A program made the translations under genes and the position numbers. This document shows positions 37,570-45,040 of a stretch of DNA of 64,000 nucleotides, piece after piece. Source of the stretch: Oryzias latipes (Eukaryota; Chordata; Actinopteri; Beloniformes; Adrianichthyidae); NCBI RefSeq assembly GCF_002234675.1, contig NC_019862.2:17941514-18005513 (forward strand), written 5' to 3'. Each line of letters begins with the position of its first letter. Position 1 is the first letter of the stretch. The notes under the pieces were generated by a model. It had not been told where the DNA came from and searched no databases. It saw only the letters and a program-made list of their open reading frames with translations.

Positions 37570-40500
37570 ATGGCCACGTGGAGGATAGTGGGAACTTTGC
37601 TGATGATAACACACATGGGTAAGAATGCGTATTTGATTTTTGAAGCTCAAAAACAAGATGTTTTGTTTTACTCCAAACTGATTTAATGTTTAACTTTCAC
37701 ATATACTAGTTTAAAAGCAAGGCAAGAAGGAATAAAAATGATTTTTACAACACAAATTATTTTAGTGGATAAATATAAAGCTTTGTGTAGATCAAGCAAT
37801 GGAATCATTTTAGAAACAGCTGGTCAGATCATTTAAGTCTCTTAAAAACCAAGCCATTTTCCACCTTACCACTTTTATTAACTAAAGCAGAGGATCTAAA
37901 TGTTCAAAGATGTTCTCATGAAGAAGACATCATGTCTGCGTCCATCTTTGTTCCATCAGTGCTGAGCCAGAGAAGCATCAGGTGGTGCACCATCTCAGAC
38001 CCTGAGCAGAGGAAGTGTCAGGCCATGTCTCAGGCTTTCTCCAGTGTCTCCATCCGGCCCTCTCTGAGCTGCGTCAGCGGACCCACCATCGAGGGATGCG
38101 TCCAGAAACTCCAGGTGGGATTTGGAAAGAAGTTATTCTTCTAACTTCACGACCAACTTCACTGGGGCCAAAATTAAAGCTAAGAAAAATATCATAAGAA
38201 CAAACAATCGATAAGGGAAGCATGGAAATGTTCAACAAAGCTGATATTACGTGAGCTCTTATCAGAGAGGTCAAAGGGTTCTGGAGCCTTCTAAAGGGTA
38301 TCAGAGAACTTGATAAGACATCCCGATTGCTTAAAGGTGATCTGGGAGTAAGTCTTTCCCCTCAAAAATGAAATAAAGTGCTTATAAATCTTTAAAACCT
38401 TTGGCCTACAATTTTTAAAACTTTGAAACTTCTTTTGATTGTTTTAGCTGCTTAAGAAATGCTGCCATTTCTGCAGCATCTGAATCACAGTTTCCACCAA
38501 AACTCATCTGTGTTTTTTTTCCTGGACCTCTGCAGGATAAAACAGTGGATGCCTTGTCCATGTCTGGCCCTGACATCTACAATGCAAATAAAACTGTGTC
38601 CTTTAAGATTGCTGCAAGTGAATCAAAGAATGGAGGTACGACTCACAACTTCCTGTGTGTAATGATTTCCAGGGAATTATTCCATCTCTTAGAACATTTT
38701 AAATAAGATGCAAACTTGACACCTGTTTCCCTTAGTGTAGTCTTTGCATCTGCAGCAGCAGGCTGCAGTATGATCCTGTGCATCTCATTCCCTGAAGATT
38801 ACAATGCAGCAATACATCCAAAACCATATGGGAGTTTCATGTGCTCTGCGCTTTTGTTTGTTTTTTTCTGCAGAAACCGCCAGCTACTACGCCGTTGCTG
38901 TTGTGAAAAAAATCAACTCTGGCATCAACATCAACAACTTAGCAGGAAAGCGGAGCTGCCACACGGGTAAAGGTCGAACTGCAGGCTGGACAATGCCTAT
39001 AGGATACCTCATGGACCAGGGTTACATGTCTGTGATGGGCTGCAACATCCCACAGGGTAGGAGGGGCTTGTTTGTGCTTTTACTGTGCACTTTTAGGAGT
39101 AAACACCTGAATGCACATCCAGTAAGCTTTTGTAGCTCATCCTGTCCATACACAAACAATAAAACGTTTTTGGGGGATGTTTTGGAATCAGGGGTGGCAG
39201 ACTTCTTCAATGCAAGCTGTATTCCCGGTGCTAATGAGTCCGGTGACCCTCCTTCTCTGTGTCAGCTCTGCAAAGGAGACAACAAAACTGGACAGCACAA
39301 ATGTGAGATGAGCACCAATGAGATGTACTACAACTATGAAGGAGCCTTCAGGTAACACATCTCTGTTCTGCAGTCATGCCACTCTGAACCCGTAACTGGT
39401 TTCATAGGAATGTTATCACAAGTTAGTGCAGAACTAACTTGGGGGATGTTATCTGACATTGCAGAGCCTCTGAGAATATTTCTGCAGACTTGTTTTTTTT
39501 TTTTTAGAAATCTAATAACTTTTATCAGGCCAACTTGTGGACAAAACAAAACCTTCTGAAAACTTTTATCAGAATTCTTCAGGAAAATAAGGCACTAAAA
39601 GACATGAATCCAGAATCTGTCAAAGCAATTGTAAAATAAATCCTTCTGAGCACTTTAAAATGAAATGAAGAGGTTTTTTATTGGTTTACATCCATCAACT
39701 TGTTGATCACGTGTGATGCTGCTTTATGATATTCTTTCAAGGAAAAACACGATCAAATGCAGCTCATTTGGGACAACAAAAACACTCCTTCCACTCCTCT
39801 TTTTGAAATGTGTGATTTTTCTCTCTGTAGGTGTTTGGTTGATAATGCAGGACAGGTGGCCTTCATCAAACACACAACCGTTGGAGAAAACACAGATGGT
39901 AAAATCTTATCTTACAATTAAAAGAAATGTGATTAGTCAGTCATTTGTCTGAAGGCTGAATCCCTTTTCTGTTTTGAATAAGGTGTTTATTTTTTTAACT
40001 TTAGGTAATGGTCCGGATTGGGCACAAAAGCTAAACTCAGCGGACTATGAGCTGCTGTGTCAGGATGGTACCAGAGCTCCCGTCTCACAGTGGAAAAGGT
40101 GTCACCTGGTCCGTATCCCGTTTCGTGCCGTCGTGGTCAACAATGACATCACTCCTTCAGTGGTGTTCAGCATGCTGAAGGAAGGTCTGGTACGTCTAAA
40201 ACGTACATACCATTCCAAACATATATTTTTTAATCTATAGTTTTATGTACACTTCAATGGACAGATTATTAGGGGGGAAAAAATGGTCAACAAAATCTAG
40301 AAGTTCTTCCAACTAATACTCAGAAAACCTTTGATTAAATTCCTAAGGTTGTTTTGCTAAAAATAAGCTTGTACTTTCAATAATTTTATAGTTCCTTTGC
40401 ATCCTTTGCACTTTCCAAACATCCACTAAGAGGAATTTGGCCAACACGTATAACTGATGTCCAACATTTAAATGTTGTTCGGTCATGATAAAAAAAAAAA

Positions 40501-43500: not shown

Positions 43501-45040
43501 CCAAAGATTTCCAGCTGCTCTGTCCTCAGGGAACTAAAGCTGAGGCCTCACAGTACAGATACTGCAACCTGGCTAGAGTTCCTTCCCATGCAGTGATTGT
43601 GCGACCAGACACCAACATCCATGCTGTCTATGGTCTCCTAGAGCATGCACAGGTAAGAAATTGTGTCCGGGTTTTGGCTGCAGGCATGCAAAAAATAATA
43701 CCTGTCACTCGCAGAAGTATCCCCTGTGCTATCTTAGATGACCCCACCCTTACATTGACGTGTTATTCCTACCATGACAAAGGTGGATAAAGGTGGAAAG
43801 AATTCATATAATCCATGGACACCAGTGAAGATCACAAATCATTGAAGAAAAAAGGTTCAGAGCACTGTCTAGTGGGTCTAGATGACCCAACTCCCAATGT
43901 TAAAGTGCCTAGGATTGCACAGGGTTTACACACACTTAAAATAATGGCCTCTTTTCAGCCAGTTTAAAGAGGAAAATTCCCAGTGAAAATGTTTCATCAT
44001 TTAAAGTATTAAAGAAAGTTGACACCCTAAATTCTCTTCATCCTCAGAGTTCTCATCTGAGACTCTACAAACCTCAGTCAGCTTGATAAACAATAATGTT
44101 ACCTTTGTTCATGCAAAGAGCACTGCCTGGTTCTTAGTGCAAACAGACTTATCATCTCAGACATACCTTCAGATTTAAAAGCTGACATTTTTTCCTTTTT
44201 ATATTGAGTTTATCTATTTGTTCACTGGAACTTAGATTCAACAGGTTATGCATTTGTATTAAGTAATAACAAGACATTTTAGACAATCAAAGTGGATTTT
44301 TGGTGCTGCTTTCAAAGATGCTTCAAAAATGTATATAACTAAAGGAATTGTTCATTCTTTATCAACCCTTGTGCTATCCCAGGCACTTTAATCTTTCCAC
44401 CTTTATCCACCTTTGTCATGGTAGGGAGAACACGTCAATGCAAGGGTGGGGTCATCTAAGATAGCACAAGGGTTAAAATAATACAAAGTGGGTTAAAGTG
44501 TGTATGTGCAGACTTCATTAACATTGAAATACATAATTGGAACATACTGAATTGAAAAATATGTGCTTTGTTAAAAAAAAAAATCACATTTCTCCATATT
44601 ATTTATGGCATGCAGATCAGGCCTATTGTGTTCTTCTGTGAGGGTCTATGACAGGACATTACTCTTACTCTTTTTGTTCTCATATTTTGTCCTCTCCCTC
44701 CCCCCTGTAGGCATACTTCAGCAGCGACACAGGTTCTGGATTCAGGATGTTCGACTCCCAGGCATACAGTGGTACAGATCTCATTTTCAAGGACTCCACT
44801 GTTCGCATCATCGCCGTTGGTGCCCGAAAGACCTACCAGGAGTGGCTGGGTCAGGAATACATAGACTCACTTGTTGACATGGAATGCAGCTCATCCAGCA
44901 TTGGTAAAAACAAAAATCTATTATCATTTACTAATTTAAAGCTGTGAAATAAACCTTTACTCCTGTTTCCAGTGACGTCATCTGCGTGGCTGATGCTGAT
45001 GACCGTCCTTGGCGCCATGCTGACCAACATCTGGGCTTAA
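37570..45040 (+). CDS. meltf: meltf, melanotransferrin (GPI-anchored transferrin homologue), complete
   Basis: Cell-surface member of the transferrin family with two homologous lobes. 16 exons: 37570-37618, 37960-38114, 38536-38635, 38874-39056, 39192-39351, 39831-39898, 40005-40189, 40668-40833, 40935-41086, 41181-41277, 41349-41543, 42184-42337, 43307-43374, 43465-43652, 44711-44903, 44973-45040. All are GT-AG and the sum is 2181 bp, 726 residues plus stop (human 738). The start has a strong context (gaagccATGG) and is followed by a signal peptide ([16 protein letters not shown]). The C-terminus ends in a hydrophobic stretch ([20 protein letters not shown]) fitting a GPI-anchor signal. Position next to dlg1 matches human 3q29. 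The iron ligands are unusual: the N-lobe site is broken and the C-lobe site complete. Mammalian HEYLH, a proposed zinc motif, is absent (GNLYN here). Confidence 0.96.
37960..40833 (+). CDS. meltf: meltf N-lobe exons, iron site degraded
   Basis: Exons 2-8. The lobe opens with [14 protein letters not shown] and closes near KPA. Compared with serum transferrin ligands Asp63, Tyr95, Tyr188 and His249, this lobe has Ser78 (in [11 protein letters not shown]), Tyr106 (in SYYAVAVV), Tyr211 (in NYEGAF) and Arg279 (in RIPFRAVVV). The anion-binding Thr132 and Arg136 ([11 protein letters not shown]) are kept. Two of the four iron ligands are therefore replaced, so tight Fe(III) binding in this lobe is unlikely. 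The cysteine framework looks normal. Exon 3 (38536-38635) is also unusually diverged after the Ser78 region ([15 protein letters not shown]). Confidence 0.93.
40935..44903 (+). CDS. meltf: meltf C-lobe exons, iron site intact
   Basis: Exons 9-15. The lobe opens with [15 protein letters not shown]. All four transferrin iron ligands are present: Asp416 ([12 protein letters not shown]), Tyr446 (SYYAVAVV), Tyr550 (DGYDGAF) and His619 (RVPSHAVIV), with anion-binding Thr473 and Arg477 ([11 protein letters not shown]). Human melanotransferrin has lost this site in its C-lobe (Ser for Asp, and the Thr/Arg pair gone), so the fish C-lobe should be the iron-binding lobe. Two copies of a MITE sit in the intron between exons 14 and 15. 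Confidence 0.94.
42421..42527. repeat. SINE-like 3' end with (ATGG)n microsatellite
   Basis: aggctccagcagaccccaaa and aaagaaattaagcgggttt match the fragment at 2510-2555, followed by about 14 units of GATG (42464-42522). It lies in meltf intron 12. Confidence 0.8.
43721..43925 (+). mobile_element. MITE copy A (CCCTTGTGCTATC family)
   Basis: The ends ccctgtgctatcttagatga and aggattgcacaggg form imperfect terminal inverted repeats. The inside (aaggtggataaaggtggaaa, atccatggacaccagtgaag, tcactgtctagtgggtcta-type) is shared with copies at 49917-50121 and 56909-57109 and with the deleted copy at 44363-44476. No coding capacity. Confidence 0.8.
44363..44476 (-). mobile_element. MITE copy B, internally deleted
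   Basis: Same family as 43721-43925, opposite orientation, with the middle removed. The ends aacccttgtgctatcccagg and gatagcacaagggtt are clear inverted repeats. It is in the same meltf intron as copy A. Confidence 0.8.

Follow-up and report, generated by a model that had tools for sequence, protein, structure and literature searches.

The 64,000-nucleotide stretch of Oryzias latipes DNA analysed here (the window; contig NC_019862.2, positions 17,941,514 to 18,005,513) carries a gene for melanotransferrin (MELTF) whose product, judged from its predicted sequence, very probably has a single canonical Fe(III)/carbonate site, located in the C-lobe, its N-lobe being without the two ligands that N1 would contribute. 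N1 is the half of the lobe that supplies the Asp and His ligands. In locating the ligand positions we took Tyr451, Tyr556 and His625 to be the C-lobe anchors of human MELTF, and a MAFFT alignment of six lobes, which served as a second check, was anchored on human lactoferrin with the ligand numbers that we assume for that protein. The alignment to human MELTF was itself anchored on the residues that PMC7804310 names for structure 6XR0. In this alignment, the window N-lobe presents Ser78, Tyr106, Tyr211 and Arg279 at the four ligand positions, with anion residues Thr132 and Arg136 intact; their human counterparts are Asp78, Tyr107, Tyr210 and His279, with Thr132 and Arg136. The C-lobe, by contrast, presents the full set: Asp416, Tyr446, Tyr550 and His619, plus anion residues Thr473 and Arg477 (human Ser421, Tyr451, Tyr556, His625, Ala478 and Ser482, respectively). 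The lactoferrin-anchored alignment yields identical ligand letters. We rejected misalignment of these positions as an explanation: phmmer, the six-lobe MAFFT alignment and the numbering offsets to the cod protein (see below) concur. The ten residues named in the original prediction were right in both identity and numbering, Thr132 and Arg136 being additional to them. Thus the canonical N-lobe iron site, a feature of the human protein and not one that defines the family, is absent from the window MELTF, where Ser78 and Arg279 replace Asp and His.

The second shell of the window N-lobe is also altered: in lactoferrin numbering, Gly62 is replaced by Pro (Pro80), Tyr82 by Lys (Lys99) and Lys301 by Ser (Ser321), while Glu80 is retained and Lys stands at position 210. 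At positions 62, 82, 301, 80 and 210 the C-lobe residues are Gly, Tyr, Lys, Glu and Lys. We also compared the pair of residues that corresponds to two lysines aiding the acid-triggered opening of the serum transferrin N-lobe: this pair is Lys568/Lys667 in the window C-lobe and Lys229/Ser321 in the window N-lobe, and Lys/Lys and Arg/Lys in the human MELTF N- and C-lobes. The pair was dropped as a marker of an intact lobe: human lactoferrin, in which both lobes are complete, has Arg/Lys and Lys/Asn.

Accelerated change in the window MELTF is concentrated in N1. Our relative-rate test uses one human melanotransferrin as partner and one human lactoferrin as yardstick. In columns where both lactoferrin lobes agree, N1 has 17 fish-only and 0 human-only changes across 54 columns (p 1.5e-5), as against 5 and 4 for N2 (70 columns), 2 and 4 for C1 (57 columns), and 9 and 7 for C2 (70 columns). 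The N1 counts are 13 to 0 (p 2.4e-4) after removal of two ligands and two second-shell residues. With the lactoferrin N-lobe (LfN) alone, the fish-only to human-only counts are 32 to 8 for N1 and 13 to 19 for N2; with the lactoferrin C-lobe (LfC) alone, N1 stands at 25 to 5. Among the 22 rate comparisons, the N1 results with LfN, LfC or both would survive correction for that number, whereas two others would fail it: N1 measured against the other melanotransferrin lobes (20 to 6, p 0.009) and the whole N-lobe with LfN (p 0.044). Fish-human identity is 62/158 in N1 versus 93/169 in C1 (p 0.0055), and 93/170 in N2 versus 94/172 in C2 (p 1). No comparable acceleration is seen in the human C-lobe, although it cannot bind iron.

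The human protein has lost its second site by a different route. According to PMC7804310, the human MELTF C-lobe has Ser421 in place of Asp, and neither carbonate anchor remains (Ala478 and Ser482). The original prediction described the human protein as the reverse of the fish one, and the opposite lobe is indeed functional: the N-lobe in human MELTF, as compared with a complete site in the C-lobe of the window protein. On the other hand, neither protein mirrors the other: Asp, Thr and Arg are lost from the human C-lobe, whereas the window N-lobe has lost Asp and His and keeps both Tyr, Thr and Arg. The lobes are disabled differently, and two distinct partial losses fit better than the earlier description of an iron site ‘switched’ between lobes, which implies a transfer of function that nothing shows.

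The C-lobe-only pattern itself is already known: it was published for Atlantic cod melanotransferrin (MTf) in 2011 (PMC3125230), with C-lobe Asp393, Tyr423, Tyr527 and His596 intact, and with Tyr56 and Arg257 in place of the N-lobe Asp and His; that paper itself contrasts the lobe arrangement with that of mammals. By our own arithmetic, the offset from the published cod numbers to those of the window protein is constant, at 22 in the N-lobe and 23 in the C-lobe, so the residues occupy the same positions. The two fish proteins are therefore alike in their intact C-lobe Asp-Tyr-Tyr-His set and in the replacement of both N-lobe Asp and His, with Arg for His at the same position; they differ at the Asp position (Tyr in cod, Ser in the window) and in exon number (17 reported for cod, 16 coding exons here). 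That both species carry Arg for His speaks against an assembly effect, a caveat attached to the original prediction. Among teleosts, the residue pattern covers these two proteins; the N-lobe loss, being common to both species, is most likely older than their split, and the C-lobe-type state that they share probably predates it. Judging largely by titles and abstracts, we found no literature on the fish lobe difference besides the cod paper, although reviews of ligand conservation by Lambert and co-workers may cover it. What our analysis adds is the differing mode of loss in each lineage, the altered second shell around the N-lobe site, the concentration of change in N1, and a search of the introns next to exons 3 and 7 that turned up no cassette-like alternatives to them.

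Homology identifies the gene as the MELTF orthologue of this fish. Exon borders were picked by homology and splice signals and then checked by script: all 15 introns are GT-AG, as the good splice sites of the original prediction would have it, and the frame is open throughout its 726 residues. The span first proposed, 37960-44903, took in exons 2-15 but neither exon 1 nor exon 16. The identification as melanotransferrin is borne out by phmmer, which ranks the human protein first among PDB chains (6xr0_M, E 9.4e-239, covering residues 10-711); the next chain is a lactoferrin (6e-180), and among the best 60 of 94 matches the lactoferrins and serum transferrins rank below 6xr0_M. Pfam Transferrin (PF00405) occurs in two stretches (E 1.9e-189). 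Identity to human MELTF is 158/332 in the N-lobe and 188/344 in the C-lobe. The two lobes of the window protein are identical at 143/341 positions, and each has 14 cysteines, none of them mismatched to human MELTF in the aligned part. The lengths and phases of exons 2-8 are mirrored in exons 9-15 (155/152, 100/97, 183/195, 160/154, 68/68, 185/188 and 166/193 bases), which we interpret as the trace of an old lobe duplication. The hydrophobic tail encoded by exon 16, approximately 20 residues as judged by eye in the translation, suggests that the product is probably anchored by glycosylphosphatidylinositol (GPI). A chance assembly of exons or a pseudogene was rejected, given the 16 coding exons with GT-AG introns, the open 726-residue frame, the 14 cysteines per lobe and the 143/341 lobe identity. 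The 64-residue piece encoded by exon 11 gave 10 pattern matches but 0 relatives among viral contigs; its 149 pattern matches among genome contigs led to one locus, rejected as a chance match to what we take, from its frame, to be a bacterial Rho-type termination factor. A GGAT tetranucleotide run lies in MELTF intron 12 (42468-42519).

Certain points weigh against a single site confined to the C-lobe. PMC7804310 reports that an Asp-to-Ser change alone leaves iron binding in other transferrins, and both carbonate anchors are kept in the window N-lobe; on these grounds weak or unusual N-lobe binding is conceivable, and to call this lobe ‘dead’ may be too strong. With LfC alone, fish-only changes outnumber human-only ones in N2 too (21 to 10, p 0.07), and a milder N2 excess is therefore possible, and the rate test depends on a single human melanotransferrin and a single lactoferrin. 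In addition, PMC11090492 states that the Mtf gene seems to be duplicated in some teleosts, and a second copy could lie elsewhere in this genome.

Bearing these points in mind, the alternative that survives best, although we consider it unlikely, is that the N-lobe is alive, with unusual anion or metal binding through Tyr106, Tyr211, Thr132 and Arg136 and perhaps a second anion on Arg279. In its favour, every residue of the anion motif is present, no significant acceleration is seen in the N2 half of the cleft where both lactoferrin lobes agree, the transferrin Asp-to-Ser mutants retain iron binding, and Manduca transferrin binds iron through two tyrosines and two carbonates (PMC8896695). Yet the second shell of the N1 wall has changed along with the ligands, which resembles lost cleft closure, and the residue at the Asp position is not constant between cod and the window species. 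Somewhat less likely again is an N-lobe rebuilt instead of simply lost, in which N2 retains the two tyrosines and the carbonate anchors, and the Arg at the His position and the fast-evolving N1 wall would form a non-canonical anion or metal cleft alongside a membrane-proximal iron C-lobe.

We also doubt that the window gene is one of two fish MELTF duplicates and that the lobe difference reflects a division of labour between copies, the reported duplication in certain teleosts notwithstanding: PMC3125230 describes one cod MTf gene with the same pattern, and no second MELTF copy was found in the 64-kb window, where all tblastn matches to the window protein (E up to 1) fall inside the gene and a tblastn search with human melanotransferrin (E up to 10) adds only weak ones (E 3.6 to 8.7). 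Least credible of all is a normal N-lobe hidden by an assembly error or by alternative exons 3 or 7, the other caveat raised at the outset: among segments of 60-300 bases with GT-AG borders and an open frame in the required phase, the four introns flanking these exons offered 3 candidates per exon, the best of which scored 15 and 13 against the human exon (below the shuffled-exon means of 15.8 and 21.1, and far from the 40 and 176 of the real exons 3 and 7), tblastn with human melanotransferrin gave no separate match in those introns, and the cod paper, from cDNA and genome, describes the same loss. This search thus yielded no cassette-like substitute for either exon in the four flanking introns; it was not directed at intron retention, non-GT-AG exons or exons elsewhere.

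Returning to the single-site reading, we hypothesize that the C-lobe, beside the presumed membrane anchor, would hold one ferric ion and a carbonate between C1 and C2: Thr473 and Arg477 would hold the carbonate, and Asp416, Tyr446, Tyr550 and His619 would ligate Fe(III). The N-lobe, with Ser for Asp and Arg for His, would probably not undergo the usual closure on iron; its N2 half keeps both tyrosines and the anion anchors, and the lobe probably acts as a scaffold or in some other contact. Acid-triggered release of iron from the C-lobe is a reasonable guess from the Lys568/Lys667 pair, but lactoferrin shows that a lysine pair is not required. GPI-anchored human melanotransferrin is described as bringing iron via caveolae and endosomes to ferritin (PMC13213057), and the route of uptake in fish may be similar.

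Table 1. Positions of the MELTF gene, its exons and the upstream DLG1-type pieces in the window.
Feature	Positions	Strand	Remarks
MELTF coding gene, Oryzias latipes	37570-45040	+	16 coding exons, 726 residues; GT-AG introns; best PDB match 6xr0_M; Pfam PF00405
MELTF exons 1-4	37570-37618, 37960-38114, 38536-38635, 38874-39056	+	
MELTF exons 5-8	39192-39351, 39831-39898, 40005-40189, 40668-40833	+	
MELTF exons 9-12	40935-41086, 41181-41277, 41349-41543, 42184-42337	+	
MELTF exons 13-16	43307-43374, 43465-43652, 44711-44903, 44973-45040	+	
Exon 1, bulk of putative signal peptide	37570-37618	+	hydrophobic N-terminus, by eye
Exons 2-8, N-lobe	37960-40833	+	ligand positions Ser78, Tyr106, Tyr211, Arg279; anion Thr132, Arg136
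Exon 3	38536-38635	+	Ser78 at Asp-ligand position; Pro80, Lys99 at second-shell positions
Exon 7	40005-40189	+	Arg279 at His-ligand position
Exons 9-15, C-lobe	40935-44903	+	Asp416, Tyr446, Tyr550, His619; anion Thr473, Arg477
Exon 16, hydrophobic C-terminal tail	44973-45040	+	consistent with GPI-anchor signal, by eye
PDZ and guanylate-kinase pieces, DLG1-type gene upstream of MELTF	797-1084, 28887-29430	+	Pfam, PDB matches

The neighbour of human MELTF is DLG1, and the DLG1-type exons upstream of the window gene (Table 1) fit orthology and a conserved DLG1-MELTF neighbourhood. Two guanylate-kinase pieces were recognised there, one slightly under the Pfam cut-off and the other well over it; the top PDB match of one DLG-type piece is Disks large homolog 1, with DLG4 chains nearly as good. 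Elsewhere in the window, a single open frame (51968-52384, + strand) encodes a full-length FKBP2-like protein with a signal-like start and an FKBP domain (best PDB match 4nnr, FKBP2, E 2.6e-70). Mammalian FKBP2 contains introns; this intron-less frame may represent a retrocopy or else a gene with one exon, and no poly-A tract follows it within 52385-52900, where the longest A run is 3. A 403-codon open frame on the - strand (62570-63778) has a hAT-family C-terminal dimerisation domain and is a transposase gene or remnant. Open frames at 48640-51720 (+ strand) resemble, by eye in translation, pieces of a reverse transcriptase of the long interspersed nuclear element type; Pfam gave no match for one such putative piece (50545-50883).

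Fish and human MELTF thus keep the sole complete iron site of one protein in opposite lobes, which makes the protein an elegant example of alternative loss. The complete site is the N-site in one lineage and the C-site in the other, and different residues have been lost, so that two losses from a two-site ancestor would be the simplest account. Retention in opposite lobes bears on why melanotransferrin needs just one iron site, and it means that the function of the human protein is not transferable to the fish protein residue by residue. The coding exon count of the window gene equals the 16 exons given for human MELTF in PMC11090492. Drosophila melanotransferrin requires iron for septate junctions (PMC3708341, where the lobe is not named in the text consulted). 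For the sterlet, a sturgeon, PMC6826671 lists a complete melanotransferrin transcript (MN045278). The window MELTF belongs to the same two-lobed fold family as serum transferrin and lactoferrin and has the same ligand positions; human lactoferrin carries the six site residues in both lobes, whereas the window protein does so only in its C-lobe. Serum transferrin and lactoferrin are secreted and have no C-terminal anchor tail. The window N-lobe can also be compared with the fish otolith matrix protein, described in PMC3125230 as a transferrin-family protein without iron ligands; that protein has a single lobe and is expressed in otoliths, whereas the window MELTF has two lobes.

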